The notes under the pieces: model-generated
The model's input: the letters and a program-made list of their open reading frames with translations, nothing else
Told to the model about the DNA's origin: nothing
Databases searched by the model: none
NCBI GenBank assembly: GCA_024742395.1
Contig: JANSYO010000013.1
Span: 1-64,000 of the forward strand
Direction of reading: 5' to 3'
DNA length: 64,000 bases
Source: Cytophagales bacterium
GTDB taxonomy: Bacteria > Bacteroidota > Bacteroidia > Cytophagales > Spirosomataceae
Position numbers and translations under genes: made by a program
Part shown: piece after piece, positions 21,277 to 38,735 of the stretch
Numbering within the stretch: the stretch's first letter is position 1
Layout: every line of letters starts with the position of its first letter

Positions 21277-22788
21277 CTAAAAGAAAGTACCTACTGTCAA
21301 TGAAAGCGTTCCTACTTTATTGTTAATCACAGCTGAATCATAATTTTCAGGGTTGCTTAATACATAAGGAGTGTAAGCACTATTAAAACTACTCGCAGAA
21401 AACGCAGCATCAGCAAAGAACTTAGCTGATCTGAAACCAGCCCCACCCGATAAAATCACATTAGACCTCTTTAGGCTTGTGCTCTTCTGATAGGGGTCGG
21501 CTAAATAGTTTACGCCACCTCTTACTCTTGCTCTTCCTAACCTTACTTCAAGCCCACCTTTAATATTCACAACATCTTTATAAACCTGTGCAATAGCTGT
21601 GTTTTGCTCGTTCGTCCAGCTATTACTATTCTTGTCTTTCACACCCATGTTTCCATAACCAATATATTCGGCTTCAAGACTTACTACACCATACTTTTTG
21701 GGTAAAAGATAAGCAAGCCCCACATTCCCACGCCATGGAGAAGTCAGCTTATAAGCGTAGTCACCAGGAGCCGTTTCTATGGTACTAAAATCTGTCAAAA
21801 AGGTGTTAGGCTTTTGATCAATACTTATGGCTGAATAGAAAGTCTCATTTACCCTCATGGCTGTGGGAGTGGTCACATTCATCCCTACTCTAAAGTCATT
21901 TGTAACTTTATAAATAGCACCCAGTGTAAGGTTTATTCCACTTCCTTTAACAACTAGTTCATCCACATAGCCAAAACCATTAAATACTTCACCATTTGGG
22001 AAGGTTTCCTGATGGCTGCTGATCTGATTATAATTTAAAGACTGAATTCCTATTCCGGCTCCAAAATAAACTCTGTCTCTGTAATTGGCTCCATAACTTA
22101 AATTTAACTGACCTAAATTACCTCTTTCAGAAACCTGGCCCTTTTGAACCACAGGAAAACTAGGCTCTACCACCACATAGCCCCCATCTTCATATGGGTC
22201 TATCATATAAGCTTGATAATACATCGATTCTGGTGTTGCAGCAATACCGGTAGTCGGATCAAATTCGCTATCCAATGTCCCTGTGTCTGCCCCCCTAAAA
22301 GTGGCCTGCTCCGCAAAATAATCCATCAATGAACTTCGATTATGGCTACCTGTGTAATCGTAATTATTATAGAAGTTAGCCAAGGTATTATAACTTACTC
22401 CAAACGTTGATTTCACTTTAGAGTTGCCACCTCTATTCTTATTCATGATCAGTGATACTTGACCTATTGTGGCTTTCGAGGAGTTCCTGTCTACTGCCTC
22501 TCCTAAATACGTACTGGAAGTACTTAAATTATTGAATATAGGGCTAATACTAAATTCTGATCGGTTATAAAAACCTAGTCCTGCGGGATTCACAAAGGTA
22601 TTGCTTGCATCTCCTCCCAGGGCCGTAAAAGCCCCTCCCATCCCAATAGTTCTTGAAGAACCATAATTTGAATATTGAGAAAACTTAAAAGCGTCCTCTC
22701 CATAAAAATGACCACTAACATTCACCTGACCTGACACAGGAAAGTATGCCGTTAGAGTCAAAAGAATAATTATATGTAACTTTTTCAT
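21277..22788 (-). CDS. FadL/OmpP1-type outer-membrane transport protein
   Basis: A 503-residue outer-membrane beta-barrel protein with signal peptide (MKKLHIIILLTLTAYFPVSG). The N-terminus of the mature protein carries the FadL/OmpP1-family pattern: RTIGMGGAFTALGGDASNTFVNPAGLGFYNRSEFSISP. The C-terminus ends in Phe (LSLTVGTFF), as expected for Bam-dependent assembly. Relatives import long-chain fatty acids or aromatic hydrocarbons; old annotations call them hemin receptors. Substrate unknown here. Confidence 0.85.
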   Translation of the reverse strand: MKKLHIIILLTLTAYFPVSGQVNVSGHFYGEDAFKFSQYSNYGSSRTIGMGGAFTALGGDASNTFVNPAGLGFYNRSEFSISPIFNNLSTSSTYLGEAVDRNSSKATIGQVSLIMNKNRGGNSKVKSTFGVSYNTLANFYNNYDYTGSHNRSSLMDYFAEQATFRGADTGTLDSEFDPTTGIAATPESMYYQAYMIDPYEDGGYVVVEPSFPVVQKGQVSERGNLGQLNLSYGANYRDRVYFGAGIGIQSLNYNQISSHQETFPNGEVFNGFGYVDELVVKGSGINLTLGAIYKVTNDFRVGMNVTTPTAMRVNETFYSAISIDQKPNTFLTDFSTIETAPGDYAYKLTSPWRGNVGLAYLLPKKYGVVSLEAEYIGYGNMGVKDKNSNSWTNEQNTAIAQVYKDVVNIKGGLEVRLGRARVRGGVNYLADPYQKSTSLKRSNVILSGGAGFRSAKFFADAAFSASSFNSAYTPYVLSNPENYDSAVINNKVGTLSLTVGTFF

Positions 22789-22896: not shown

Positions 22897-24225
22897 CTAT
22901 CTTGGTCCTCTTGAAGATCCTCCTGATGAAGATCTTGAAGAAGAGGATGAACTTCCTCTTGAATAGCCACTGCTAGAAGAGCTGCTTGAACTAGGTCTTG
23001 AATATGAACTATTGTTCGAATTTGTACTTGGTCTGCTGTAAGTGCTATTGCTAGGTCTTGAATAAGAACTTCTGCCTGATGAAGATGGTCTGCTATAAGT
23101 AGAGCTTCCCGCACTTCTCGCACTCGATCTGTTATAAGTACCTGTTCTGCTAGTGTTACCATAAGAAGACGTTCTGGCAGATGAACTTGTAGCATTTGAT
23201 CTTCCGTATGAAGAGCCATTAGTAGAAGCAGCTGATCTTCTAACAGGGTTTGCTGAACTGTTTCTGGCATAGTTATCATAAGAAGTCGGTCTTCTTGAAT
23301 AAGTTGTACCATTTGAGGAAGCAACTCTGCCATTGGCTCTCTCCGTTAAAGTAGACCTTGTAGAAGCTATTGCACTGTTTGCACTGCTTACAGATCTTCT
23401 TGAAGATGAAGCCGTTGTTACAGGTCTTCTGGTATTCACAAACCCATCATTATAAATACTGCTTGAACGACCTGCTGCTCTTGAACCATAAGTACGTGCA
23501 TTTCCAAAACCTGAGTCGCCATAAATGTTATTTATGTATACCGGCTGTACTGCGTAATAAGGGTTACCGAAGAATCCTCCTCCGTAATAGCCAAACGAGT
23601 TATAGCCATATCCCCAAGGACTGTAGCCAAAGCTATTGAATCCCCAAGGGCTAAACCCACCAAAACCGTAAGGGCTGTAGAAGCTATTGAATGAGTTCCA
23701 TCCAAACGGACTATATCCGAAAGAGAAACCAAAACTACTGGCAAATGGCATGTAGGCGTAACTTCCAAAAGAATTAAAACCCCACGGGCTGAAACTATTG
23801 AAAGAGTTCCATGTATTCCATCTGTTAAATCTGGAATTATTCCAGCTATATGGAGTATTCCATGCATAGTCATTCCATCCTTCAGAATAGCCATCGGCAT
23901 ATCCATCAGCATAGCCCGCCTCTGCAGAATAGGTTCTTTTTAAATTTCTTGAGTTTACATAAGACTCATCATAATAAGCATCAGTACCCTCAATAGTGCT
24001 ATCCAGAGGAATAGGATCAAATGAGTCATTGTACTGCTCTAAATATTCCGGGGCATATGAATCTGCCTTCTTTGAAATAGTCGGAGAGTACACCACAGCA
24101 GCATTAGTTGACGAACCATACATATCATCAACCTCTCCATTGCTTACTAATGTTTTGCTAGTAGAACAGCTGCCTAAGGCACCCACTACTAACATTGACA
24201 AACCTAAATATTTTATCCTTTCCAT
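22897..24225 (-). CDS. Low-complexity aromatic/Ser-Arg-rich lipoprotein
   Basis: A 442-residue lipoprotein of unknown function with a lipobox (VVGALGSC, Cys about residue 20). Residues ~20-110 are ordinary. Residues ~115-240 are extremely rich in Trp, Asn, Ser, Phe, Gly, Tyr and Pro, with repeats of the type SPWGFNSFG and SYSPFGWNSF. Residues ~245-442 are Ser/Arg/Thr/Asn/Gly-rich with repeated SSYSRPS-like units. Similar proteins in Bacteroidota are sometimes mislabelled prolyl-tRNA synthetase because of the neighbouring gene. The start at 24225 gives the lipoprotein signal; the upstream in-frame extension to 24339 would destroy it. Confidence 0.8.
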   Translation of the reverse strand: MERIKYLGLSMLVVGALGSCSTSKTLVSNGEVDDMYGSSTNAAVVYSPTISKKADSYAPEYLEQYNDSFDPIPLDSTIEGTDAYYDESYVNSRNLKRTYSAEAGYADGYADGYSEGWNDYAWNTPYSWNNSRFNRWNTWNSFNSFSPWGFNSFGSYAYMPFASSFGFSFGYSPFGWNSFNSFYSPYGFGGFSPWGFNSFGYSPWGYGYNSFGYYGGGFFGNPYYAVQPVYINNIYGDSGFGNARTYGSRAAGRSSSIYNDGFVNTRRPVTTASSSRRSVSSANSAIASTRSTLTERANGRVASSNGTTYSRRPTSYDNYARNSSANPVRRSAASTNGSSYGRSNATSSSARTSSYGNTSRTGTYNRSSARSAGSSTYSRPSSSGRSSYSRPSNSTYSRPSTNSNNSSYSRPSSSSSSSSGYSRGSSSSSSRSSSGGSSRGPR

Positions 24226-24354
24226 AGTTCTATTAATTACTTTGTAAGTACAAACTCTACCATTAAGATGCAGAATCTCGCCTGAAGGTTGCGTCAAGTA
24301 TAAAATTTTCCTGAACTGCACATTTATATAACGATCCAATGCATCGAGTAGTTA

Positions 24355-24362
24355 CAAAACTA
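24355..24362 (-). promoter_or_regulatory. Candidate -7 box for the aromatic lipoprotein gene
   Basis: TAGTTTTG on the minus strand matches TAnnTTTG, 130 bases before the lipoprotein ATG, and is nearly back-to-back with the proS -7 box. Confidence 0.35.
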
Positions 24363-24373
24363 CCCAAAAAACT

Positions 24374-24381
24374 TATCTTTG
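24374..24381 (+). promoter_or_regulatory. Candidate proS promoter -7 box
   Basis: TATCTTTG matches TAnnTTTG exactly, 78 bases before the proS ATG in the divergent gap. Confidence 0.5.
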
Positions 24382-24459
24382 CAATCTTTATTAAAGGGCT
24401 TAACAAATCCTTATTTACATAAGACTTAAGATAAATTCTTTACTAATAATACGAAGAAA

Positions 24460-25932
24460 ATGGCAAAAGGGCTTCCTACAAGAAGTGAAAATTATTCTGA
24501 GTGGTATAATGAACTCGTCAAAAGAGCAGATTTAGCCGAGAACTCAGATGTTAGAGGGTGCATGATTATTAAACCTTATGGGTTTTCTATCTGGGAGAAA
24601 ATGCAGCGGGCACTTGACGATATGTTTAAAGAAACGGGGCATAGCAATGCATATTTCCCTTTATTTATTCCGAAATCATATCTTTCTAAAGAGGCCAGCC
24701 ATGTGGAAGGTTTTGCTAAAGAATGTGCTGTCATTACACATTACAGATTAAAAAATGACGAGAATGGAAACGGTGTAGTGGTAGACCCTGAAGCTAAACT
24801 TGAAGAAGAGCTTATCGTACGTCCTACTTCAGAAACGGCAATTTGGAGTACGTATAAAAGGTGGATTCAGTCTTATCGCGACTTGCCAATTTTATTAAAT
24901 CAGTGGGCCAATGTGGTACGTTGGGAAATGCGTACGAGAATCTTCTTAAGAACATCTGAATTCTTATGGCAAGAAGGCCATACGGCACACGCCACTAAAG
25001 AAGAGGCCATTGAAGAGACCTCAAAAATTCTTGACATTTACGCTAAATTCTCTGAAGAGTGGATGGGCGTGCCGGTAGTAAAAGGTTCTAAAACTGCCAA
25101 TGAACGTTTCGCAGGAGCTGAAGACACTTTATGCATAGAAGCCTTAATGCAAGACGGCAAAGCTCTGCAGGCAGGTACTTCCCATTTTCTTGGCCAAAAT
25201 TTTGCCAAAGCCTTTGATGTTAAATTTCAAAGTAAAGAAGGGACCTTAGAATACGTATGGGGTACCTCATGGGGCGTGAGTACCAGACTGATGGGTGCAC
25301 TTATTATGGCTCATTCAGATGATCAAGGATTGGTTTTACCTCCAAAATTGGCTCCCATTCACGTGGTGGTGGTACCTATTTATAAAGGCGAAGAGCAACT
25401 AGAACAGATAAGAGGAATAATTACTCCATTGCTAACTGAGTTAAAAGCCGCTGGCATTACAGTCAAATTTGACGATGATGACAATAGCAGACCGGGGTGG
25501 AAATTTGCTGAATATGAAATGAAAGGCGTTCCTGTTAGGGTGTCTGTTGGAATGCGAGACCTGGAAAAAGGGCAAATTGAAATAGCCAGAAGAGACAATT
25601 TGACTAAGGAACAAAAACCTCTGGAAGGTGCAGGTCAGTACATAATTGACCTTTTAGATAAAATTCAGGATAGCATTTACAAGAAAGCACTGGATTTTAG
25701 AGCCAGGAATACAAACGAGGTCAATACCTGGGACGAATTCACGGCCCAAATCGAAAAGGGTGGTTTCGTTTCTGCCCACTGGAATGGTAGCTCTGAGACC
25801 GAAGATAAAATCAAGGAACTTACAAAAGCCACTATCCGTTGTATCCCTTTAGACGCAAAAGAGGAGAAAGGAAGCTGTATTCTTACAGGAGAACCTTCAA
25901 ATAAGCGGGTTCTGTTTGCAAAAGCTTATTAA
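24460..25932 (+). CDS. proS: Prolyl-tRNA synthetase, eukaryote/archaea-like type
   Basis: A 490-residue class II aminoacyl-tRNA synthetase. The N-terminus ([20 protein letters not shown]), the motif 2 region ([24 protein letters not shown]) and motif 3 ([18 protein letters not shown]) match the eukaryote-like ProRS group (ThrRS-like anticodon domain, no INS editing domain), which is standard in Bacteroidota. The C-terminal domain ends in an aromatic residue (LFAKAY), as in that group. Length is complete. Confidence 0.97.
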
Positions 25933-27606: not shown

Positions 27607-28464
27607 ATGAAATCACTACGTATTTTAACCCTTTTATTGGCTCTTCCATTACTGAGCAATGCCCAAAATCAGGCAGATAGGAAAAACTTTGGCACTTATA
27701 AAGTGGAAAACGCTCCTTTTAACACGATTTTGGTTTATGAAGAAGATGGCAAAGTAGTGGGTGAAGCTGTAAACGCCGGAAAGTCAGAACTAATGGCAAA
27801 TGGCGATGCAGACACCTATGACCTGGCCGAAGTACCCGGTGGTAAAGTAGAGTTTGTCAAGAATGACAAAGGAATAACTGAGTCATTGATTTTAAACATG
27901 AACGGCGAACAAGTAACCGGTACTCGTCAACTCCCTGATTTTGCGGAGTATAACGGAATTTACGAAATGGATAGTGACATGCTTTCAGAAGTAAAAGTGG
28001 ATGGAAAAGACCGAGTGCTTAAAATCAGTACCGTGGAGTTTGGTTCAGGTGAATTAAGTTTTACCGGTATTATAGATCAGTTTCTCGAAAACAGTTATGG
28101 AAGTGATTTTATTTTTGTGAGAAATGAAGAAGGTGAAGTTACAAGCTTGAATATAGAATTAGCCAGTCAGGGCATCTACATGAAGGGGATGAAAAAAGTA
28201 GCAAAACCTTCTATGGGATTGTACATAGGACGTTTTGAATTTCAAGATGCTCCTTTAACCTTAAAGACTGAGATAAGAGATGGCAAACTCTATGGAATTA
28301 CTGAACAAGGTGAAGCATTCTTAACTCCATCTGAACTTGAACATTTATTTGATATTGAAGGGGTAGATGGTACGGTACTTTTCGAAGTAAACGAAAACGG
28401 CGAAGTGACGGAAGTTACTCTTACATATCAAGGACAACCTATGCTGGCATACCCGGCTAAATAA
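27607..28464 (+). CDS. Secreted protein with three tandem DUF3471-like repeats
   Basis: A 285-residue secreted protein (signal peptide MKSLRILTLLLALPLLSNAQ). The mature chain consists of three similar ~85-residue units starting at about residues 27, 112 and 201: GTYKVENAPF..., NGIYEMDSD..., and GRFEFQDAPL.... Each has a beta-rich body containing an F/V-x-N-x-x-G-x-V/I-T-x-L strand. This resembles the C-terminal DUF3471 domain of serine hydrolases, here without an enzyme attached. Function unknown; monocistronic and closed by a terminator. Confidence 0.72.
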   Translation: MKSLRILTLLLALPLLSNAQNQADRKNFGTYKVENAPFNTILVYEEDGKVVGEAVNAGKSELMANGDADTYDLAEVPGGKVEFVKNDKGITESLILNMNGEQVTGTRQLPDFAEYNGIYEMDSDMLSEVKVDGKDRVLKISTVEFGSGELSFTGIIDQFLENSYGSDFIFVRNEEGEVTSLNIELASQGIYMKGMKKVAKPSMGLYIGRFEFQDAPLTLKTEIRDGKLYGITEQGEAFLTPSELEHLFDIEGVDGTVLFEVNENGEVTEVTLTYQGQPMLAYPAK

Positions 28465-28482
28465 TCAAGTAGTTTAAAAAAT

Positions 28483-28512
28483 AAAAGAAGGAGGTTTAGA
28501 CCTCCTTCTTTT
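28483..28512. terminator. Bidirectional intrinsic terminator
   Basis: A 13-bp stem (AAAAGAAGGAGGT and its complement) with a four-base loop TTAG lies between the convergent triple-repeat and DUF2807 genes. Confidence 0.88.
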
Positions 28513-28516
28513 CTAA

Positions 28517-29233
28517 CTAGTCTTTTCTAACCTTACTTCCCCCTGAGACCTCTTGGTCTATACGGGGTGTCCCTCTGTAATTGACCGTGCTGGCACCACT
28601 CGCTTCTACATTCAGATAATCGCTAACGCTTACATTGGCTTTGCTGGCACCACTAAGGTCTAAATAAACCTCCTCAGAATCAGCGTCAAATGCATTGAGT
28701 TTTGAGGCTCCAGAGATAGATGCCGTTATATTGGGCGTTTGCCTGTTAACATCAAGTGTAGAAGCACCGGAAATCTCAATTCTTAAATCTGAAACTTCTA
28801 CATCAAGATTAACTTTAGAGGCACCTGATAAATCTGCCCTAAAAAGATCAAAAGACGTAAAATCTTCAATATCAACTCGAGCAGCACCGGAAACATCGAT
28901 AGCGGTAAGTTCAGGCACCTCTATCAGTAAGTCAACACGATCTCTTGAAATGCTGCCAAACCAACTACTTTTCACATAGCTTACTTTTAAGGTATTGTTA
29001 ATCACTCTGACATTCAAGTCATTAACGTCTCTTTCGGCTCCTGTGGCGGTTACCCTAAAATTAGTAGATGGGATAATTATAGCATTGAAAGCAGATCCTA
29101 TATCTGCTTCGTCAAAAAAATCTACATTGAACTCTTCTTCAATTACATCGCCGGGAGGCGTTCTGTTCCCTATCTCAGTGAATATACAAGCGTTCAAAAA
29201 AGGGAAAATTAAAAGGATTAATAGCTTTTTCAT
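28517..29233 (-). CDS. Head-GIN / DUF2807 domain lipoprotein
   Basis: A 238-residue lipoprotein (LLILLIFPFLNAC lipobox, Cys about residue 16). The mature part is the DUF2807 'putative auto-transporter adhesin, head GIN' beta-helix. It starts FNVDFFDEADIGSAFNAIIIPSTN and has recurrent turns SGAARVDIED, LSGASKVNLD, ISGASTLDV, ISGASKLN, LSGASKANV, ASGASTVNY and SGGSKVRK, about one per 20 residues. The upstream region carries, on the minus strand, a copy of the motif that also precedes the ECF sigma gene. That suggests co-regulation. Surface location is inferred. Confidence 0.87.
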   Translation of the reverse strand: MKKLLILLIFPFLNACIFTEIGNRTPPGDVIEEEFNVDFFDEADIGSAFNAIIIPSTNFRVTATGAERDVNDLNVRVINNTLKVSYVKSSWFGSISRDRVDLLIEVPELTAIDVSGAARVDIEDFTSFDLFRADLSGASKVNLDVEVSDLRIEISGASTLDVNRQTPNITASISGASKLNAFDADSEEVYLDLSGASKANVSVSDYLNVEASGASTVNYRGTPRIDQEVSGGSKVRKD

Positions 29234-29343
29234 TTGTTTGATTTATTACAAGTTAATAGTCTTTAGCTAACGAATTAAAACATTGATAATTAGACTCTCT
29301 TAGCAATTATCTCATTATGTTTCTCTTCATTTTCTATTCTTAA

Positions 29344-29371
29344 GACAATTACCTGTCAGCTTACCCCTATA
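29344..29371 (-). promoter_or_regulatory. Predicted ECF-sigma promoter for the DUF2807 gene
   Basis: Minus strand: ATAGGGG, 15 bases, TTGTCTTA. Same elements and exactly the same spacing as three other copies in this locus. It points towards the DUF2807 gene, with a ~110-base leader, and is back-to-back with the sigma-operon copy. Confidence 0.6.
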
Positions 29372-29396
29372 CAAGACAAATAAATTTTTATTTTCT

Positions 29397-29424
29397 CATA
29401 GGGGGAAAGAATCAGAGAGTTGTC
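29397..29424 (+). promoter_or_regulatory. Predicted autoregulated ECF-sigma promoter
   Basis: CATAGGGG, 15 bases, TTGTCATA, ending about 29 bases before the sigma-factor ATG. It matches the copies before the STN gene, the TonB receptor gene and the DUF2807 gene. Confidence 0.65.
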
Positions 29425-29453
29425 ATATAAAGGATAACACTCAAGAACCTTGT

Positions 29454-30059
29454 ATGTTTGCAGTGAACAAATCGCAAAAAAGAGCCTTGCCAGCACAAGA
29501 AGAAAATCTTCTGATTAAGATAAGAGAAGGGAACGGAGCCGCCTATGAAAAGGTATTTCGTCTTTATTACTCTGATTTAAGCAGATATGCCTTCTCTATT
29601 CTAAAAAAATCAGATGAAGCGGAAGATCTGGTTCAGCAAGTCTTCGTGAATTTTTGGGAGAAAAGAGAGCAAACGATTATTACTGGTGCTTTAAAGAGTT
29701 ATCTGTACAGATCTGTTCACAATGCCTGCCTGAACGTCATTAAGCACGAAAAAGTAAAAGCTCAGTACTTACAACACTGTACTTACTTTGATAACAAGTT
29801 TAATTTCGAAGTTGAGGAAAACTATCTTGGCGACGAACTTTCATCAAAAATTGAAGCCGCAATTGATGAATTACCCACCCAGTGCGGAAGAATTTTCAGA
29901 CTCAATAGAATGGAGTCTTTGAAATATAAAGAAATAGCAGAGCATTTAGACATTTCTGTAAAAACGGTTGAGAATCAAATAGGCAAAGCCCTTAAGCTCT
30001 TGAGAGGCTCTTTAGCCGAATATTTGATCAGTATTTTATTTTTAATTTTCAGGATATGA
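29454..30059 (+). CDS. ECF RNA polymerase sigma factor (Bacteroidetes FecI-like family)
   Basis: A 201-residue sigma-70-family factor with only regions 2 and 4. Region 2 is visible as YYSDLSRYAFSILKKSDEAEDLVQQVF with FVNFWEKRE (about residues 41-77). Region 4 is visible as LPTQCGRIFRLNRMESLKYKEIAEHLDIS with the helix-turn-helix and VKTVENQIGKALKLLR (about 141-188). This is the Bacteroidetes expansion family of FecI-like factors. It overlaps the FecR gene by four bases. The motif upstream suggests that it transcribes its own operon. Confidence 0.95.
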   Translation: MFAVNKSQKRALPAQEENLLIKIREGNGAAYEKVFRLYYSDLSRYAFSILKKSDEAEDLVQQVFVNFWEKREQTIITGALKSYLYRSVHNACLNVIKHEKVKAQYLQHCTYFDNKFNFEVEENYLGDELSSKIEAAIDELPTQCGRIFRLNRMESLKYKEIAEHLDISVKTVENQIGKALKLLRGSLAEYLISILFLIFRI

Positions 30060-31012
30060 ATAGCTCAATAGACGAAAAAATATTAGCTAAATATTTTGCG
30101 GAGGAAGCCAGCATAGAGGAACTGACTATTCTGAACCATTGGCTTCAGGAAGACGACGAAAATGAAATTGTTTTACAACAATATCATAAGATTTGGCTTT
30201 CAGGGAAGCCGAAAAGCCGATTCGAACCTGATGTAGAAAAGGCCTGGACAAACGTGGCAGCCAGAACCGTAGAAAAAAAGCCTAGAAATTATATTGCCTG
30301 GGCCGCGGCTGTGGCGGGCATATTACTTGTAAGTACTTTTTTCCTCTTACAAAAAGAATCAGAACCAGAGTATCTCTCTTTGAAATCTGAAAAGAAACAA
30401 ATAGAAAAAACGCTGGCCGATGGAAGCACAATTACAATAAACTCCTTTAGTTTGTTAGAATTCCCTGAATCATTTAATGGCGATGAAAGACGAGTCAAAT
30501 TAATAGGAGAGGCATTTTTCGATATCACCCGGGATGAATCGAAGCCTTTCATAATTGAGGCCAATGGAACAGTAATAAAAGTACTGGGCACCTCTTTTAA
30601 CATTTCAGCAAGAGACGAAAATGTGAAAGTAAGTGTCAAATCGGGTAAAGTAGAATTTTCAAGCTCCCCGAATGAAAAAGTTATTCTTCAAAAAGGAGAA
30701 GAAGCCGTGTACGAAAGTCTTAAGGACACCATTAAATCTGCCCCAATTCTTGACAGAAACGTCTTTGCTTTTAAAACCAAAGTATTTGAATTCAAAGAAA
30801 CTAGTTTAGAAGAAGTGGTTAATGTATTAAACAAAGGCTACCAATCAGATGTTAAGCTAGAGGGGGGTACATGGACTGATTATCAAATCACCACTCGTTT
30901 TGAAAATGAAAAACTAAGTGATGCCTTAGATATCATTGCTCAAACCTTGGAGTTAGAGGTAGTCAAGAATGATGAAACCTACGTTTTGGCTAAAAAAACA
31001 AGAAATCAATAG
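30056..31012 (+). CDS. FecR-family anti-sigma factor
   Basis: A 318-residue inner-membrane anti-sigma factor. A cytoplasmic N-terminal segment of ~80 residues, expected to hold the sigma factor, precedes one transmembrane helix (AWAAAVAGILLVSTFFLLQ, about residues 82-100). The periplasmic FecR domain follows (about 110-210; LADGSTITINSFSLLEFPESFNGDERRVKLIGEAFFDI). The C-terminal domain of DUF4974 type is at about 238-315 (ETSLEEVVNVLNKGYQSDV ... LELEVVKNDETYVLAK). Translationally coupled to the sigma gene. Confidence 0.94.
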   Translation: MNSSIDEKILAKYFAEEASIEELTILNHWLQEDDENEIVLQQYHKIWLSGKPKSRFEPDVEKAWTNVAARTVEKKPRNYIAWAAAVAGILLVSTFFLLQKESEPEYLSLKSEKKQIEKTLADGSTITINSFSLLEFPESFNGDERRVKLIGEAFFDITRDESKPFIIEANGTVIKVLGTSFNISARDENVKVSVKSGKVEFSSSPNEKVILQKGEEAVYESLKDTIKSAPILDRNVFAFKTKVFEFKETSLEEVVNVLNKGYQSDVKLEGGTWTDYQITTRFENEKLSDALDIIAQTLELEVVKNDETYVLAKKTRNQ

Positions 31013-31035
31013 GGGATAACGAGGTAAACCTTGTC
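31008..31035 (+). promoter_or_regulatory. Predicted ECF-sigma promoter for the STN-domain gene
   Basis: AATAGGGG, 15 bases, TTGTCTTA. It begins in the last codons of fecR and lies about 58 bases before the STN-gene ATG. Same spacing as the three other copies. Confidence 0.6.
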
Positions 31036-31093
31036 TTATTCTAAAACAAATACTTCAGCAAATTCTGAAGTCAGACAGAAAAAGATATTACAA

Positions 31094-32917
31094 ATGAACA
31101 AGCTATTACTCATCTCCCTTTTATTATTAAGTTCACTAAACTCCTGGTGCCAATCCGCCCTTCTAAGTCAAAAAATCGAACTTAATGTTGTAAATCAACC
31201 ACTAGACATTGTCCTTAAAAGTATCGAAGCCAGGGCAGACGTTCGCTTCTCGTATAATCCTAAGGTAATCAATGCCAACAAGCTAATTACATACAAAACT
31301 AACGGAAGCTCCTTAGAGAACATACTCATTGAACTACTGGGAAAAGAATTTGAAGGGAAAGTAAGAGGAAATCACATTATACTTCAAAAAAGTAAAACAC
31401 CCGAAAAAAAAGACTTTTACATAACAGGTTATATAAGAGACGGTGAAACCGGTGAAGAAATAACCAATGTTTCGGTATACGAACCACTGACATTGGCATC
31501 TACACTTTCTAACCTTAATGGCTACTATAAAATAAAGCTTCCTAAAGACCAGCCTGATCTGGGCCTGAGATTTTCAAAAGAAAATTACGATGTAGCCATC
31601 GTAGAAGTTTATGGCAGAACAGATCAAAGGCAAAACGTAACGCTGTTAAAAACCATGAAACCGAAGGTTCTGACAGAGCCAACATTTGCGATAGCCACCC
31701 CCAAAGTTAAAATAGATAGTACTCCTAAAAATTTGCAGGAATATATTGAAATGGCACACCCACAGCCCGTAGAGGTTCCTGAAGTAAAAACGAGTACAAA
31801 AAAAGTAGAATTGCCCAAATTAGATTTGCCTAAAATAGATTTAAGTGATGAGTTTGCCGCCATAGATAGTGGCTACAGAAAGGGAAAAGATGATTTTCTA
31901 AACTGGCTTTTAACCACTAAACAGAATTTCCACTTAAGAAATAATATCGATAGCCTTTACAGACCATTCCAAATCTCCCTGTTACCCTATTTAGGAACCA
32001 ATCTAAAGCTGAGCCCATTTGTCACAAATGATGTCTCTATTAATATCATAGCCGGCTATACCGGTAGCGTTAGAAAACTGGAGTTAGGTGGTTTTGCCAA
32101 CGTAGTAAGAGAAAACATGACGGGGCTGCAGGCTGCCGGAGCCTTAAATATTGTTGGTAAAAGAACCGACGGTGTTCAGCTGGCAGGTTCATCAAACTTT
32201 AACATTGGCGATGCACATGGTTTTATAGCAGCGGGTGCTACTAATTTCAATTTTAAAAACGGTAGTGGTGTACACATGGCTGGTGCGTTAAACTTTAACC
32301 TAGGCTCTTTTACCGGGGTACAAATAGCACCTGTTAATGTAACCGGCACATTAGTAAATGCCACTCAACTTGGAGTATTTAATTTTGCGAACGAACAAGT
32401 AAATTCATTACCTATTGGCTTTTTCAGCTATGTTCATAAAAATGGATATCGAAGATTTGAAATAGCCTTTTCTGAGCTAAATGCTACTGAACTTAGTTTT
32501 AAATCTGGTGTAAAGGGCTTCTATAATGTCTTTAATGCCTCTTTTAATTATGGCCAGGCCAATAAACCCTTATTTGGTGTAGGTTACGGATTAGGCACTT
32601 CCTGGAATTACTCTAAAAGATTTAGTTCTAATCTGGAGGCCGTGGTAATGTCTTACGTTCCTGAAACGGATGATTATTTTGACAATTGGAATTCTCATTT
32701 AAGATTAAGCTTAGGCTTTGAAGCCAAAATCACTAAAAGGGTGGCTATTTTCGCTGCTCCAACTTTAAATTTTTACACTTCCAGCAATGATGGACTAGAT
32801 TTTTCTGAATACAAATTCTTGTTATCACAAAGGAACGTCAACTGGTTCGGCGATAATTCAAATGCCTATTCATGGCTTGGATACAAAGTTGGTTTACGAA
32901 TTTGCAATAAGTCCTGA
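31094..32917 (+). CDS. STN + carboxypeptidase-like domain protein with C-terminal repeat/barrel region, no TonB plug
   Basis: A 607-residue secreted protein (signal peptide MNKLLLISLLLLSSLNSWCQ). Residues ~25-100 form a secretin/TonB N-terminal (STN) signalling domain (IELNVVNQPLDIVLKSIEARADVRFSYNP ... NHIILQK). A carboxypeptidase-regulatory-like domain follows at ~108-185 (ITGYIRDGETGEEITNVSVYEP). A Pro/Lys-rich linker and a beta-rich C-terminal part come next, with repeats of the form GVQLAGSSNFNI, FIAAGATNFNF, GVHMAGALNFNL and GVQIAPVNVTG. These resemble the LA_2272-type surface repeat. There is no plug or 22-strand receptor barrel. It may feed a surface signal to the adjacent FecR. The upstream TTG at 31031 is part of the promoter motif, so 31094 is the start. 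Confidence 0.85.
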   Translation: MNKLLLISLLLLSSLNSWCQSALLSQKIELNVVNQPLDIVLKSIEARADVRFSYNPKVINANKLITYKTNGSSLENILIELLGKEFEGKVRGNHIILQKSKTPEKKDFYITGYIRDGETGEEITNVSVYEPLTLASTLSNLNGYYKIKLPKDQPDLGLRFSKENYDVAIVEVYGRTDQRQNVTLLKTMKPKVLTEPTFAIATPKVKIDSTPKNLQEYIEMAHPQPVEVPEVKTSTKKVELPKLDLPKIDLSDEFAAIDSGYRKGKDDFLNWLLTTKQNFHLRNNIDSLYRPFQISLLPYLGTNLKLSPFVTNDVSINIIAGYTGSVRKLELGGFANVVRENMTGLQAAGALNIVGKRTDGVQLAGSSNFNIGDAHGFIAAGATNFNFKNGSGVHMAGALNFNLGSFTGVQIAPVNVTGTLVNATQLGVFNFANEQVNSLPIGFFSYVHKNGYRRFEIAFSELNATELSFKSGVKGFYNVFNASFNYGQANKPLFGVGYGLGTSWNYSKRFSSNLEAVVMSYVPETDDYFDNWNSHLRLSLGFEAKITKRVAIFAAPTLNFYTSSNDGLDFSEYKFLLSQRNVNWFGDNSNAYSWLGYKVGLRICNKS

Positions 32918-32942
32918 ATCACTATATCAGATTTTTAATTTT

Positions 32943-32979
32943 CAACCTCCTTTCAATGCTGACTGGGGGTTGTTTTTTT
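32943..32979 (+). terminator. Intrinsic terminator after the STN gene
   Basis: CAACCTCC / GGGGGTTG (one G-U pair), 14-base loop and seven T. It separates the sigma-fecR-STN transcripts from the TonB receptor gene, which has its own predicted promoter. Confidence 0.8.
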
Positions 32980-33008
32980 ACAAATATTCGCAAGAAATAA
33001 CGTTCTCG

Positions 33009-33036
33009 CATAGGGGTATAGCTTAGCCCAATTGTC
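33009..33036 (+). promoter_or_regulatory. Predicted ECF-sigma promoter for the TonB receptor gene
   Basis: CATAGGGG, 15 bases, TTGTCTCA, ending 26 bases before the receptor ATG. Same elements and spacing as the sigma, STN and DUF2807 copies. Confidence 0.65.
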
Positions 33037-33062
33037 TCATAGTAAATTACTTAAAACAAATC

Positions 33063-35501
33063 ATGAGAACAAAAAAGCTATTACTTATCCAATTTTTATT
33101 CTTCGTCAAATTAAGTCTCTCAGGGCAAGATTTAACTCAAACAATTCGTGGTAGAGTCATTGATATTGATGGTAAATTTCCATTAATAGGGGCCACTGTG
33201 AACCTAAACTTTGGAGGAATCTCCTCCTCCACTTTTACTGATACCAACGGCTCTTTCAAATTTGAAGAAATACCAATTGGAAGGCATAATTTAAAAATCA
33301 GCTATATAGGTTACGAGAGCAAAACCCTTCCAAACCTTGAGCTGACCTCAGGGAAAGAAATCGTCTTAGAAATACAAATGCTGGAATCTCTTAACAAGAT
33401 GAATGCGGTCATAGTTAAGGCCAACAAAAACAAAGGAGAAGTTAGCAATGACATGTCCTTAATCAGCTCCAGATCAGTCACTGTAGATGAAACTCAGCGA
33501 TATGCGGGCTCTTTCAATGATCCTGCCAGAATGGTTTCATCTTTTGCAGGCGTAACGGCAAATCCCGAAGGCAATAATGACATTGTGGTGAGAGGTAATT
33601 CTCCTAAGTACATACAATGGCGACTGGAAGGAATAGAAATTCCAAACCCAAACCATTTTGGAGATGTGGGCGGCACAGGTGGTCCTATCAGTGCCCTTAA
33701 TAGTAACTTACTTGCAAATTCTGACTTCTATACTGGAGCTTTCTCACCAGAATATGGCGATGTACTTTCGGGAATATTTGATGTGAAATTCAGAACAGGC
33801 AATAATGAAAAGTCTGAGTATGCTTTTGGTATTGGTGCATTAGGTATAGATGCCACCTTTGAAGGCCCCTTTAAAAAAGGCTACGCTGGCTCCTACCTTT
33901 TTAATTATCGATATTCATCACTCGCACTACTAGATAATCTGAAACTTGTTGATTTTGGAGGCATTCCTAAATATCAGGATGGGGCTTTTAAAATCCATCT
34001 TCCCACAGAAAGAATTGGTTCATTTTCCCTTTTTGGACTCATGGGTAAAAGTAGTATTACAGAAAATTATGACTTTGAAGATCAAGTTTCGCTTACAGGA
34101 AATACCGTATTCCAAAGCACTACAAAGGCTGTTTTTCAGCTAAATAACAATCTCTATACTTCAGGCTTAAGACATATTTACTCTATCAATAAAAAAAGTT
34201 ATGTTGAAACTATGGTTTCCTATTCAGGCTCCTCCATCAATGAAGATGAAAAAGAAAACTTAAGCGGATTTATCCTTAACATGGCGGGTGAATCCTTACG
34301 AGATTCCAGTACAAATTCGTATGAGACCTACTATACTAAAATAATTAATAGTGCCTTTAGAACCTCCATTCGCTTTAGTTCAAAAGTAAATCAAAAACAC
34401 AAGATTGAACTGGGCAGTAAATACATTTTACAAGCAAATGATTTCAACGAAAAATATGCTTTACAAAAAGCAAAACCACTATTTACTTCTATTGATTTTA
34501 AAAATAATTTATGGTCTATTCGAAATTACGCTGCCTGGAAATTCCGACTTAATGAAGCTATAACTTTTGTTTCAGGTCTCCATCACTTTCATGTTCCTTT
34601 AACAGGTGAACATTCTGTAGAACCACGAATAAGTATGAGGTGGAGTTTGAAAAGCGGCGGTACTTTCAATGCCGGCTATGGTAGGCACAGTACTATGGAA
34701 AACGTCAGTAATTATTATGCTAAAGTGCAGAATGATGCCGGAGGCATAACAGAGCCTAACAAAGATTTGCTTTTATTAAAAGCTAATCACTTGGTTTTGG
34801 GTTATGAAAAACGTTTCACCCAAAATCTCATGGGTAAACTGGAAGTTTACTATCAAGGCTTAGATCACTTACCAGTCAAAAACGACCCGGCAAGCTATTA
34901 TTCTACCATAAACGAAACAGAAGGGTTTCCTAACATTGCTTTGGTAAGCAAAGGAACCGGACAGAATTATGGCATAGAATTTACATTGGAACGCTTTTTC
35001 GTCAATAATTTCTATTACATGTTTACTTCCTCAGTATATCAATCAAAATATAAGTCACTGGAAAATGTGTTGCGAAACACCCGATATAACGGCAATTACG
35101 CCTTCAATGCATTAATTGGAAAGGAGTTTGTGAATTTGGGAAGAAAACGAAACATAACTATAGGACTCAATGCCAAGCTATTCTACGTGGGGGCCAGGAA
35201 AATTATTCCACTTTTAAGAGACGAACAAGGGAATTTAAAGGTGGACCTGGAAAATGATCGATATTACGATGCAAGTAAAGCCTACGAATATGGTCTAGAT
35301 GATGTTTTTCAGATCAATACCTCAGCATCATTGAAGATTAATAAATCAAAATCTACACATGAGTTTGCTATTGATATCATCAACACGAATAACAGTCAAG
35401 CCAGACTCTATGAATATTACGATAGAAACGTAGAAGGAAATATAGAATATGGAAGACCCTTAAGTTTTCTGCCCAATATCGTCTACAGGGTTCATTTTTA
35501 G
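33063..35501 (+). CDS. TonB-dependent receptor with carboxypeptidase-like N-domain, no STN
   Basis: An 812-residue outer-membrane receptor with signal peptide (residues 1-21). A carboxypeptidase-regulatory-like domain follows at ~27-115 (IRGRVIDIDGKFPLIGATVNL ... IGRHNLKISYIGYESKTL), then a plug at ~135-250 (DIVVRGNSPKYIQWRLEGIEI ... FSPEYGDVLSGIFDVKF) and a barrel to the C-terminal aromatic (NIVYRVHF). There is no STN domain, although it belongs to a sigma/FecR locus. It is clearly paralogous to the receptor at 36403-38688 (shared QWRLEGIEI-x-NPNH and NYRYS motifs). Ligand unknown. Confidence 0.9.
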   Translation: MRTKKLLLIQFLFFVKLSLSGQDLTQTIRGRVIDIDGKFPLIGATVNLNFGGISSSTFTDTNGSFKFEEIPIGRHNLKISYIGYESKTLPNLELTSGKEIVLEIQMLESLNKMNAVIVKANKNKGEVSNDMSLISSRSVTVDETQRYAGSFNDPARMVSSFAGVTANPEGNNDIVVRGNSPKYIQWRLEGIEIPNPNHFGDVGGTGGPISALNSNLLANSDFYTGAFSPEYGDVLSGIFDVKFRTGNNEKSEYAFGIGALGIDATFEGPFKKGYAGSYLFNYRYSSLALLDNLKLVDFGGIPKYQDGAFKIHLPTERIGSFSLFGLMGKSSITENYDFEDQVSLTGNTVFQSTTKAVFQLNNNLYTSGLRHIYSINKKSYVETMVSYSGSSINEDEKENLSGFILNMAGESLRDSSTNSYETYYTKIINSAFRTSIRFSSKVNQKHKIELGSKYILQANDFNEKYALQKAKPLFTSIDFKNNLWSIRNYAAWKFRLNEAITFVSGLHHFHVPLTGEHSVEPRISMRWSLKSGGTFNAGYGRHSTMENVSNYYAKVQNDAGGITEPNKDLLLLKANHLVLGYEKRFTQNLMGKLEVYYQGLDHLPVKNDPASYYSTINETEGFPNIALVSKGTGQNYGIEFTLERFFVNNFYYMFTSSVYQSKYKSLENVLRNTRYNGNYAFNALIGKEFVNLGRKRNITIGLNAKLFYVGARKIIPLLRDEQGNLKVDLENDRYYDASKAYEYGLDDVFQINTSASLKINKSKSTHEFAIDIINTNNSQARLYEYYDRNVEGNIEYGRPLSFLPNIVYRVHF

Positions 35502-35926
35502 AAAATAACTACATTTTGGAAATCTGCGGAGTTTACACAATCAGTAGTTAAAGCATCTTCCCAAATGGGTGCCATGCATCTATTTGGAAAGATGAATTTT
35601 GCAGTGGCTTCTGCCCTACTACATGCTCAGGCAGGCCGCTGCATGAAGTTGACTATGGCCATTCAAGGCGAGTTAGGCAATAGAATAAAACTTTGTGTAT
35701 AGATCACAGAGAATGGCTCTGTTAGGTTTTCTGAACCTAGTCCGTTAATAGACAAAACCATTATTTGAGAATTCTCAGAAAAGAAAAATATAACGGTTTG
35801 ATAGTCAATGAATCTCGAAATTCTTATATTCATTGCTTGTCGTACTCTTTTTGCTAGCAAGAAATGAAAATACGACCAGCTATTTATTGTCAAACCATTG
35901 CCTAGGGCATTATCACCTATTGAACC
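35502..35926. other. 425-base intergenic region with a strong hairpin and an open-frame fragment
   Basis: No gene I can support. A GC-richer block (about 35540-35680) contains a strong imperfect hairpin at 35600-35643: a 9-bp outer stem, a two-base bulge, a 5-bp inner stem and a 14-base loop. The same block is open in one plus-strand frame from just after 35501 to the stop at 35702, with an internal ATG at 35565 giving 45 residues of plausible composition (AVASALLHAQAGR, AIQGELGNR). I do not recognise it; it may be a gene remnant or a structured RNA. The right half is AT-rich with no further signal seen. Confidence 0.4.
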
Positions 35927-36397
35927 ATGAAAAATTTCCAATCAAAATCTCCGGTACAAGAAAAAGAATTACAGCTTAAAGTACCTTCTGTCACTGATTA
36001 CATGACACCTGTCAGCAGACTGATAACTATAAAAGAAGATACGCCGGTTCTTGAAGTTTTGGATTTGCTTTTAAGCAAAAGAATTACCGGAGCACCCGTA
36101 TTAAATGATCAGGGAGAAGTTGTGGGCCTAATTGATGATAAAGACTGCCTGAACATTCTTTTAGGTGGTGCTTATTATAATCATCCGGTAGAAAAAGACA
36201 CTGTGGGCGAATACATGTCAAATGTCATGAAAAGCATTTCAATAGACTTTGATATTATCAACGTAGCTAACACCTTTCTTACCACGCCTTACAAAAGACT
36301 ACTCGTCATGGATCATGATGGCAAATTAGCTGGTCAAATCAGCAGAAGAGACATTCTTAGAGCCATTAAAGACATGAACATGGGAAGTACCTGGTAA
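35927..36397 (+). CDS. CBS-domain pair protein
   Basis: A 156-residue protein made of two CBS domains (about residues 22-80: VTDYMTPVSRLITIKEDTPVLEVLDLLLSKRITGAPVLNDQGEVVGLI; about 92-150: YMSNVMKSISIDFDIINVAN ... RLLVMDHDGKLAGQISRRDILRAI). CBS pairs bind adenosyl ligands such as AMP or ATP and usually regulate other proteins; no effector domain is attached and no partner is evident here. Convergent with the TonB receptor gene that follows. Confidence 0.93.
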   Translation: MKNFQSKSPVQEKELQLKVPSVTDYMTPVSRLITIKEDTPVLEVLDLLLSKRITGAPVLNDQGEVVGLIDDKDCLNILLGGAYYNHPVEKDTVGEYMSNVMKSISIDFDIINVANTFLTTPYKRLLVMDHDGKLAGQISRRDILRAIKDMNMGSTW

Positions 36398-36402
36398 TTC
36401 TT

Positions 36403-38688
36403 TTAAAACTCCCAACGGTAGTTTAACATCGGAACCATACCTAGCTGATATTTGGTAATAACAGTACCTTGATACGCATCATAATAATCAAAAGCTACAT
36501 TCTGGTAATTTGCTACGTTTTGTAAGTCTATTGACCACATTCTATTCAGTTTGTCTTTTGATCTTTTCAGATAGACTCTAATGTCTGGTCTAAAGTAGTC
36601 AGGACGTTTTTCTGTCAATCCGCTGTTGTAGTCAAAAACAGTTTTCATCGCCAGTTTTGATGCGTCTAAATCAATAGTGTAATTTCTAAAACCGCCCATC
36701 CAAACTATACGGGTATTTACGCCCAAAACTCTACTTTTCGATACTTCCCATTCTTTACCTATGGTTATATTGAAAATATAATTACCACTGTATCTTGACT
36801 CATAGAAATTGCCATCGAGTGCTTTATATTCAGATTTATAAAGTGTTGTATTGGCGAGTGCAAAGAATCCGTTGTCCAGATACTTATTGAAATTAAGCTC
36901 TAATCCGTAATTTCTTCCTTCGCCTTCATTCACTAATGAAGATGGGTCAACATATTCAGTCAGGTTTACCCCAACCAGGTGAGCCTGATTTCTTGAACTC
37001 AAATCGTGGTGAACAGATTGATAATACAGCTCAGCAGTCAATGAAGATGATTTACCTGTGGCTGTCGAATAATTCAGAACAAATTGATCTGACAACGTAG
37101 GCTTTAGATTGGAATTTCCGGCATACAACCATGATGAAAACAATTGCGAGTGTCTTCCATAAGCTATATTCAGATTACTCTTTGCATTTATCATAAAGCC
37201 AAGATTAGCCCTTGGCTCCAGACTTGATGTACTGTTTAATGTATATGTCAGATAATGTAATCCCAAGGTTAAATTAGCTCTCTCTCCCAAACTCGTATTG
37301 TATTGAAGAAAAGGCTGTAAAATCATGGAAGAGAAATCTCCAACAAGGTCATTCTGAAAAGAGCTGATTGAGTCTGCTGTCTGTGTTAGATATACGCCTG
37401 CTTTCAGCCCGGCACCAGATTCAAATCTATTGGTAACTATACTACTCAGTGAGAGTTTAGAGGTGTTAGAAACATCGTTTGAAGAAGGTAGGTAATACGA
37501 ACTAACGGGGTTTATCTCCTGAGTTCTTTCATTTCTTAAACCCGAATACACTATTGCATTTTTCCAAAGCAAATTCGGACTGAAGGTTTTAGAATGCGTT
37601 ACACCTGCCGCTCCCATTTTACCATAAAAGTTAATCGCAAACAAATCCTTTTCAAACTCAGGGCCAGTCCCCTCTTCATCGTCAAAAGTGAATTCATTTG
37701 AGTTTAGACCTCCCATACCAAAAAACGTAATGTCTCCTAATTTTTTATTCGGGAAGCTTAAATTCACAGCTAAGTCCTGAAACTTAATAGACTCTCCTCC
37801 AAAACTCAAACCGCCTAAAGCCAACAGACCCGTGAAAGAGTATCTATAATTAATTAAATAGCTACTTCCTTTTTCTTTATTTATGGGGCCTTCAGAGGCT
37901 AAATCTACACCAATAAGACCTACCTGAGCGGTGTGTTCGTATTCTTTATTGTTCCCTTTTCTTAATCTCATATCCATCACACCAGATAGGGCATTACCGT
38001 ATTCCGCCGGAAAAGCTCCTGTCAGGAAGTTCATGCTACCCATCATTTGGGCAGAAACCATGTTTGTTCCACCGGCATTAACTGTGGCCTGATCAGAAAA
38101 TGTACCGGCATTGGCCAAATGATTTGGGTTCACTATCTCAATTCCTTCAAGCCTCCATTGCAAGCCCCTGGGATTGTTTCCTCTAATGCTCATTCCATTC
38201 GCCTGATCATTGGTATTCGCCACACCGGGAAACGAAAAAGCGAGCCTTGCCGGATCAAAAAAGGTAGCAGGATAACGCATCACTTGTTCTACAGTGATTG
38301 ACTGAATGCTGGTTTTAGCTCCACTGAGATTTGGGCTTGCAGCTGTTATTTGCACTTCCTCAAGATCAGTGACAGCTGGTACAAGATAAACCGGCACTAT
38401 AAGCTCTTTATTAGAAGCTAAAAGCAATTCTTTCACCAGCTGCCTGGTAAAACCTACAGCAGAGACTGAAAGCTCTACCCTACCTACGGGTACATTGTTT
38501 ATCACAAATTCTCCGTTTGAATTGGTTTGGGCATTAAGAGTTGAACCCTCTACCTGAACCGTTACATTTTCAATTAAGGCCTCTGTTACAGCGTCTTTCA
38601 CCTGCCCTCTAATGGTTCCGGTTTGTTGTGCTTGCCCTGCAAAAAACAGACAAAATAGAAATGGTAGTAGTAGTAAGCTTTTTTTCAT
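36403..38688 (-). CDS. TonB-dependent receptor with carboxypeptidase-like N-domain
   Basis: A 761-residue outer-membrane receptor with signal peptide (MKKSLLLLPFLFCLFFAGQAQ). A carboxypeptidase-regulatory-like domain lies at ~25-105 (TIRGQVKDAVTEALIENVTVQV), then a plug (MSIRGNNPRGLQWRLEGIEI, FPAEYGNALSGVMDMRL) and a barrel ending PMLNYRWEF. No STN domain. It is a paralogue of the 33063-35501 receptor, lying on the opposite strand with only the CBS gene between. Unlike that receptor it has a housekeeping-type -7 box and no ECF motif. The start at 38688 fits the signal peptide; the frame extends to 38724. Confidence 0.9.
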   Translation of the reverse strand: MKKSLLLLPFLFCLFFAGQAQQTGTIRGQVKDAVTEALIENVTVQVEGSTLNAQTNSNGEFVINNVPVGRVELSVSAVGFTRQLVKELLLASNKELIVPVYLVPAVTDLEEVQITAASPNLSGAKTSIQSITVEQVMRYPATFFDPARLAFSFPGVANTNDQANGMSIRGNNPRGLQWRLEGIEIVNPNHLANAGTFSDQATVNAGGTNMVSAQMMGSMNFLTGAFPAEYGNALSGVMDMRLRKGNNKEYEHTAQVGLIGVDLASEGPINKEKGSSYLINYRYSFTGLLALGGLSFGGESIKFQDLAVNLSFPNKKLGDITFFGMGGLNSNEFTFDDEEGTGPEFEKDLFAINFYGKMGAAGVTHSKTFSPNLLWKNAIVYSGLRNERTQEINPVSSYYLPSSNDVSNTSKLSLSSIVTNRFESGAGLKAGVYLTQTADSISSFQNDLVGDFSSMILQPFLQYNTSLGERANLTLGLHYLTYTLNSTSSLEPRANLGFMINAKSNLNIAYGRHSQLFSSWLYAGNSNLKPTLSDQFVLNYSTATGKSSSLTAELYYQSVHHDLSSRNQAHLVGVNLTEYVDPSSLVNEGEGRNYGLELNFNKYLDNGFFALANTTLYKSEYKALDGNFYESRYSGNYIFNITIGKEWEVSKSRVLGVNTRIVWMGGFRNYTIDLDASKLAMKTVFDYNSGLTEKRPDYFRPDIRVYLKRSKDKLNRMWSIDLQNVANYQNVAFDYYDAYQGTVITKYQLGMVPMLNYRWEF

Positions 38689-38735
38689 TTTATGGGTTAG
38701 GTTTCCTGATTTCATTGAAAGCAAAAATTAGTTTG

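Follow-up and report, generated by a model that had tools for sequence, protein, structure and literature searches.

The locus and its repeated box

A 64,000-nucleotide (nt) stretch of DNA from a Cytophagales bacterium (contig JANSYO010000013.1), which we refer to as a whole as the window, contains genes for an extracytoplasmic function (ECF) sigma factor, a FecR-type anti-sigma factor, a predicted outer-membrane protein and a TonB-dependent-receptor-like protein, together with a divergent gene for a DUF2807 protein. A short sequence, ATAGGGG-N15-TTGTC, recurs four times in this locus. As judged by comparison with relatives, each repeat very probably forms a promoter, with ATAGGGG as its -35 and TTGTC as its -10 element, that is recognized by the locus's own ECF sigma factor (29454-30059). 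The features are as follows (aa, amino acids).

28517..29233, minus strand: DUF2807 (head GIN domain) protein, 238 aa, putative target gene (PF10988, E 5.9e-29)
29341..29370, minus strand: predicted ECF-type promoter of the DUF2807 gene, ATAGGGG (-35) N15 TTGTCTTA (-10)
29398..29427, plus strand: predicted ECF-type promoter of the sigma-fecR genes, ATAGGGG N15 TTGTCATA
29454..30059, plus strand: ECF sigma factor, 201 aa (TIGR02985 Sig70_bacteroi1, Sigma70 region 2 and region 4 matches)
30056..31012, plus strand: FecR-type anti-sigma factor, 318 aa (PF04773, PF16344)
31009..31038, plus strand: predicted internal ECF-type promoter of the STN/beta-barrel gene, ATAGGGG N15 TTGTCTTA
31094..32917, plus strand: predicted outer-membrane protein, 607 aa, proposed sensor (AlphaFold2 model, STN in homologs)
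33010..33039, plus strand: predicted ECF-type promoter of the receptor gene, ATAGGGG N15 TTGTCTCA
33063..35501, plus strand: TonB-dependent-receptor-like protein, 812 aa, putative target gene (PF13620, PF13715 and PF07715, the last just under the cut-off)

An earlier note on this DNA had reported four copies of the motif, all with a spacer of exactly 15 bases and an A three bases after TTGTC, and all of this was borne out. Exact copies lie at 29344-29370 (minus strand), 29398-29424, 31009-31035 and 33010-33036 (plus strand); the three bases that follow TTGTC (TTA, ATA, TTA, TCA) end in A every time. The note had pointed to these same sites, its coordinates reaching one base too far on one side (29371, 29397, 31008 and 33009). 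Orientation and downstream genes also agreed with its description, the boxes preceding the DUF2807, sigma, STN-protein and TonB-receptor genes with ATG starts at 29233 (minus strand), 29454, 31094 and 33063. An alternative TTG start of the STN protein at 31031 falls inside the box, and the ATG at 31094 was taken. When the window was scanned with TTGTCNNA, allowing up to one mismatch, exactly four matches were found, each without a mismatch, so that the claim of no further copy holds for exact and one-mismatch copies. The figure of 0.008 chance matches was right for twelve bases at equal frequencies (2 x 64000 / 4^12). In 100 dinucleotide-preserving shuffles of the window, the same search gave a mean of 0.09 matches and a maximum of 1, versus the four found. 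Spacers and flanks of the four copies are unlike one another.

The 201-aa sigma factor matches Sigma70 regions 2 and 4 only (PF04542 and PF08281), as ECF (group IV) factors of about 200 aa do, and scores 160.3 bits against TIGR02985 (cut-off 126.4). Directly after it comes the FecR-domain gene, the arrangement of a sigma factor paired with a FecR-type anti-sigma factor; the fecR start overlaps the sigma stop by 4 nt, and a hydrophobic stretch was recognized by eye in the first third of FecR. For the 607-aa protein, the AlphaFold2 model (mean predicted local distance difference test score 79.3, predicted template modelling score 0.56) has an N-terminal helix, an STN-like alpha/beta fold (27-99) and a carboxypeptidase-regulatory-like domain (107-184), then a low-confidence linker and a C-terminal, beta-strand-rich, barrel-like part (288-604). 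Pfam STN was found in 20 of 23 aligned homologs. A PDB fold search with the model returned no match at E <= 0.001 and did not confirm the STN domain; the best partial matches were to carboxypeptidase-regulatory-like and porin folds. We regard this separate STN-barrel protein as the likely sensor. The 812-aa receptor gave CarboxypepD_reg and Plug matches only and no STN match in the Pfam scan. It adjoins a CBS-domain gene and a second receptor-like gene, and no SusD was found among the genes scanned. Those scanned in 27607-38724 include one sigma factor and no match to another DNA-binding family.

The layout of the boxes has some peculiarities. The TAG within the -35 box ATAGGGG of the STN promoter doubles as the fecR stop codon (31010-31012), and the stop codon overlaps the -35 box in 7 of the 23 loci that have a site near the end of fecR. 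The divergent sigma and DUF2807 promoters adjoin at their -35 ends, with 27 bp separating the two -35 boxes in the window (29370-29398) and 20-23 bp in 12 of the 21 loci measured, a spacing that may point to a helical-phase constraint.

Conservation in relatives and a start-site signature

The same intergenic regions were compared in 63 family loci, namely 60 from the 153 family genomes that bear the sigma factor (chosen to cover genera), the loci L150 and L151, and the window. The strict form for this count was RTRGGGG-N15-NTGTC, and upstream means within 300 nt. At least one strict site was present in 54 of the 63 loci, and 110 of 115 strict sites lay upstream of sigma, DUF2807, STN or receptor genes; the reversed pattern was found 0 times. 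As expected of a self-regulated sigma factor, a strict site precedes the sigma gene in 47 of the 63 loci. The count was 31 of 32 for detected DUF2807 orthologs and 10 of 17 for detected receptor orthologs, and no strict site stood before FecR in any of the 63 loci. Seven of the nine loci without a strict site have a near variant before sigma, one of which also has a reversed-control match. In six loci (L338-L343), DUF2807 has moved to the other side of the locus, and the box is present there too. A set of 33 closer homologs from named genomes gave a similar picture: RTAGGGG-N15-NTGTC, often exact, is upstream of sigma in 23 and in the gap after sigma in 1, and the box also precedes DUF2807, STN and receptor genes. 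The comparison for which the earlier note had called thus found the box in place before orthologs of the same four genes. The motif that it gave is exact in the window and becomes looser in relatives, RTRGGGG-N15-NTGTC-NTR.

Boxes of one locus resemble each other in their variable positions. In L307 to L310, CTGTC replaces TTGTC in 10 of 12 boxes, a joint shift. Across the 39 loci with at least two sites, the first -10 base agrees within the locus in 53 of 90 pairs, against a mean of 31.6 and a maximum of 47 in 2000 shuffles; one locus (L070, identical to L151) is counted twice in these figures.

The flanks of the boxes, on which no selection had been made, contain a further conserved feature. 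Among 150 distinct locus sites, index 35, which is 9 nt after TTGTC, is a purine in 98% (A 73%, G 25%). These sites also have TAA after GGGG, two purines before the -10 box, NTA after it and a T/A-rich stretch just upstream. Forty sites outside the sigma locus were fetched from relatives, and in the 37 that do not lie inside an open reading frame (ORF) of at least 150 aa the same purine occurs in 94% and the other flank features recur. We predict that this purine is the transcription start site. With this purine as +1, the boxes span -35 to -29 and -13 to -9, and the starts in the window fall at 29335 (minus strand; DUF2807), 29433 (sigma-fecR), 31044 (STN/beta-barrel) and 33045 (receptor), with leaders of 102, 21, 50 and 18 nt, respectively. 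On base composition only, this agrees with the earlier expectation of a start 5-10 bases after TTGTC. The housekeeping-type promoter TAnnTTTG was not found within 250 nt upstream of the four gene starts. Two boxes, a spacer of 15 in all four copies and a start purine seen in base composition give the ECF -35/-10 architecture proposed earlier, distinct from TAnnTTTG.

Farther from the window, the box changes place. In 44 more distant homologs (many from Saprospiraceae; L103-L149), a strict box lies in the gap after sigma in 16 and upstream of sigma in 0, compared with a shuffled mean of 0.005 and a reversed count of 0 for the gap. The gene after the gap box is FecR (PF04773) in 16 of 16. With the box between sigma and FecR, FecR but not sigma would be induced. 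In a sigma tree, 41 rows (98/98) with the box upstream or none and 24 rows (99/99) with it in the gap or none form separate supported groups, and box position clusters, with 16 changes versus 45.4 shuffled. Some long branches make parts of the tree unsure, for several loci the first ATG was assumed to be the sigma start, and the label none includes boxes further off (e.g., L079, L080, L082 and L311) and the mismatch box of L070. A phylum-wide exact scan of 395 genomes, with matches in 44, gave 23 sites versus 1 reversed in the 15 genomes of the window's order. Enrichment of the box in genomes across the phylum was rejected, its excess over the reversed pattern being confined to that order (tallies for order, class and phylum were transferred by hand from the scan). 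In distant homologs, the box appears to be supported only beside sigma. One distant genome of the phylum (G521, C1:1258889-1265241) has four GTAGGGG-N15-GTTGTC copies with the same spacer within 6.4 kb, which are probably a repeat.

Candidate readers of the box

With presence of the sigma factor defined as E <= 1e-35, 153 of 222 family genomes have it and 69 do not. The exact form RTAGGGG-N15-TTGTCNTR occurred at 182 sites versus 37 reversed in genomes with the sigma factor and at 3 sites versus 9 reversed in those lacking it. At least one site was present in 109 of 153 and 3 of 69 genomes, respectively (Fisher p 8.6e-23). One small-genome genus accounts for 38 of the 69; when it is set aside, 3 sites versus 7 reversed remain in 31 genomes. 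The proposal that the encoded sigma reads these promoters has passed the computational tests of conserved place, tracking of the sigma factor, a distinct paralog box and a start-site purine in the flanks, and we strongly infer that this sigma recognizes the box.

A competing explanation, which we consider improbable, is that these ECF promoters are read mainly by another ECF sigma factor, or by several overlapping ones, with the local sigma gene just one of the targets. The window's genome has 30 TIGR02985 matches (the weakest seven resemble other regulators by eye), its nearest paralog, at C325, has GGGG-N15-TTGTC in common with the box, and partly overlapping ECF regulons were raised as a possibility for F. 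psychrophilum in the parts of PMC9723704 that were compared. However, the presence of the motif tracks the ortholog of this sigma, and the paralog keeps a different -35 box, GTGGGG, before two genes of its own locus: GGTGGGG- and TGTGGGG-N15-TTGTC precede the sigma gene and the next gene (L158:4221 and 4941), and a homolog in a congener has TGTGGGG-N15-TTGCC. No other ECF gene of the window's genome has an exact box beside it; the ORF picked for some paralogs was shortened at an end or was not an ECF. From the 104 matches that a Parabacteroides genome and a Pedobacter genome gave, 30 ECF loci were compared, and RTRGGGG with NTGTC occurs only at the direct homolog (L355, identical to L099). With 1 of 30 such loci carrying the box, the broader idea that all FecR-linked ECFs use RTAGGGG was rejected. 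The C325 locus itself consists of the sigma gene followed by ORFs of 364 and 1134 aa.

That the box is a binding site for an activator or repressor instead of a promoter is very unlikely. Each box is upstream of a gene, and a single regulator could link the four genes; yet no dyad or direct-repeat symmetry was seen in the box, its two fixed parts, with 15 bases between them, lie near -35 and -10 relative to the conserved purine, no TAnnTTTG promoter lies beside it and, in the region scanned, the sigma factor is the one DNA-binding candidate. Chance or a recent duplication of a short segment, suggested by four near-identical short sequences within 3.7 kb, can be dismissed, since spacers and flanks differ among the copies, shuffles predict 0.09 and the positions are conserved in many species, which already refutes an artefact.

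Several observations weigh against recognition by the encoded sigma as set out above. The box could also, or instead, be read by another ECF. A strict site before sigma is lacking in sixteen of the 63 loci, and nine of the 63 have none at all; L322 and L337 lack even a near variant, and the box before sigma in Jiulongibacter sediminis (L070) has one mismatch. Only 23 of 61 STN genes have a strict box of their own, and in the window's own 607-aa protein STN falls below the Pfam threshold. Shared ancestry confounds the tests of within-locus concordance, co-occurrence and tree clustering. Little can be read from the absence of TAnnTTTG, of which about 0.06 occurrences per 250 nt are expected by chance. 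Given 37 reversed matches against 182, roughly a fifth of single family sites may be due to chance, and outside the window's order there was no excess over the reversed pattern (14 versus 21 in the rest of the class, 25 versus 60 in the rest of the phylum).

Proposed regulon and mechanism, and relation to known systems

The earlier note had described a local regulon and proposed a whole-genome scan. In the window's genome (5.54 Mb, 440 contigs), five exact copies were found and 0 of the reversed control: the four of the window and one at C72:48325-48351, so the four-copy locus stands and the regulon is not only local. The fifth copy lies between ORFs, before a gene for a 136-aa protein (G000 C72:48420-48821; L154) that is followed by a TonB receptor gene. 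The 136-aa protein has a signal-like N terminus by eye, and its homologs in a congener (G002) and another genus (G104) also carry the box. A WWGCC motif recurs in homologs of this small protein, a candidate unlinked target in three genomes. A CTGTC form at C363:43468 (minus strand), before a beta-lactamase-family gene, is a tentative member of the regulon. Five of the seven own-genome candidates examined (C69, C392, C55, C40 and C2) were rejected as lying inside ORFs. Matches with one or two mismatches were likewise rejected as a regulon class for want of an excess over the control; up to two mismatches, the form ending in NNA gave 92 matches versus 121 reversed.

The sites outside the sigma locus in relatives precede four DUF2807 genes and genes for an STN protein, receptor-like proteins, outer-membrane barrels, PepSY-like, DUF5686 and lipoprotein-like proteins, as well as NIF3-like, DUF4833 and copper-monooxygenase-like proteins and several without a family match; the Pfam scan covered 20 of 36 downstream proteins, and four sites have no downstream ORF by the rule used. 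The theme common to these targets is the cell envelope. Together with the conserved locus, this indicates that the boxes are the common switch that turns on a single conserved set of surface-signalling genes, which extends beyond the locus. In the window, a FadL/OmpP1-like gene (21277-22788) is 31% identical to a box-bearing gene of genus g3 (L223), and a lipoprotein gene (22900-24225) weakly resembles another (E 0.13). Both were dropped as targets, as no box was found in 24180-24480 or among the window matches listed.

We propose the following working model. FecR would hold the sigma factor at the membrane until an outer-membrane signal, which the separate beta-barrel protein would relay to FecR through its STN domain, frees it. 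RNA polymerase with the freed sigma factor would then start about 9 nt after TTGTC, at 29433 (sigma-fecR, self-amplifying), 31044 (STN protein) and 33045 (receptor), divergently at 29335 (DUF2807) and probably also at the unlinked gene at G000 C72:48420. The output would be a changed set of cell-surface proteins.

ECF/FecR surface signalling is already known as a kind of system. Like FecI-FecR-FecA, the locus combines an ECF sigma gene overlapping a FecR gene (PF04773), a receptor gene, an STN-like domain and ECF-type target promoters. It differs in that the STN domain belongs to a separately encoded, predicted beta-barrel protein, the receptor having none at its N terminus, and in that DUF2807 and other surface proteins are putative targets. 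The sigma and fecR genes themselves are also behind a box here, whereas E. coli fecIR is not known to be driven by FecI.

Within the phylum, the comparisons that follow apply to the parts of the cited sources that were compared. The ECF/anti-sigma pairs of Bacteroides polysaccharide loci share the ECF sigma, a membrane anti-sigma and a TonB-type receptor (PMC3878776); they differ from the window, where no SusD is next to the receptor. Dma/Das of B. thetaiotaomicron (an ECF21 sigma with a dual-membrane-spanning anti-sigma; PMC13088901) likewise represents ECF control of the surface in Bacteroidota, with a beta-barrel after a disordered tether. Dma, however, unites anti-sigma and barrel in one protein spanning both membranes, whereas here the 318-aa FecR has no barrel match and the tethered barrel is a second protein. 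The alternative ECF-type promoters of PMC9723704, one of them before an ECF/anti-sigma pair, differ in that their targets include type IX secretion system genes, and no -35 box is given in those parts. PM2 promoters of B. thetaiotaomicron (SigW-1, SigH-1; PMC7366714, PMC12596196) are also candidate ECF promoters, with one box near -30 and another, TGTT-like, near -10. They are described as near-palindromic and are tied to other ECF groups (ECF114, ECF251), and the parts compared mention no ATAGGGG -35.

Bacteroidota have many ECF sigma factors (50 in B. thetaiotaomicron; PMC12596196), few of whose promoters are known. Ravcheev et al. (2013) called ECF promoter prediction challenging and start-site data necessary (PMC3878776), and Ryan et al. 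(2020) stated that the ECFs of B. thetaiotaomicron were at that time all without a known motif (PMC7366714); SigW-1 and SigH-1 have since been linked to PM2 (PMC12596196). A published promoter of the present form was not found in the literature searched, outside which a group-wise prediction from ECF classification may exist. Here, comparison alone has resolved the promoter of one clade to the single base and yields a predicted start site, an output list (DUF2807, the proposed sensor, the receptor and other envelope proteins) and testable predictions for single bases. It provides a regulatory context for DUF2807 proteins and a route to decode other Bacteroidota ECF regulons.

We see about an even chance that FecR-linked ECFs of Bacteroidota have the -10 core NTGTC in common, with each clade marked by its own -35 "address" box (RTAGGGG here, GTGGGG in the paralog, others elsewhere), combined with a switch in placement between before FecR only and before sigma. 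If so, regulons, of which there are dozens per genome, could be deduced, with no need of start-site data, by comparing orthologs in the gaps upstream of sigma and between sigma and FecR, and a box before FecR only (Saprospiraceae and others) versus before sigma (Cytophagales) would mark an evolutionary loss or gain of self-amplification.

In the Pedobacter loci L361, L367 and L377, the gap that separates another ECF gene from its downstream neighbour contains, by eye, C-rich stretches and, after them, TGTC-like boxes. This looks like a common -10 combined with -35 boxes that vary from clade to clade. The locus L119, from the Parabacteroides genome compared above but not among the 30 loci, has ATAGGGG with a 14-base spacer after sigma, followed by a gene that by eye is unlike FecR.

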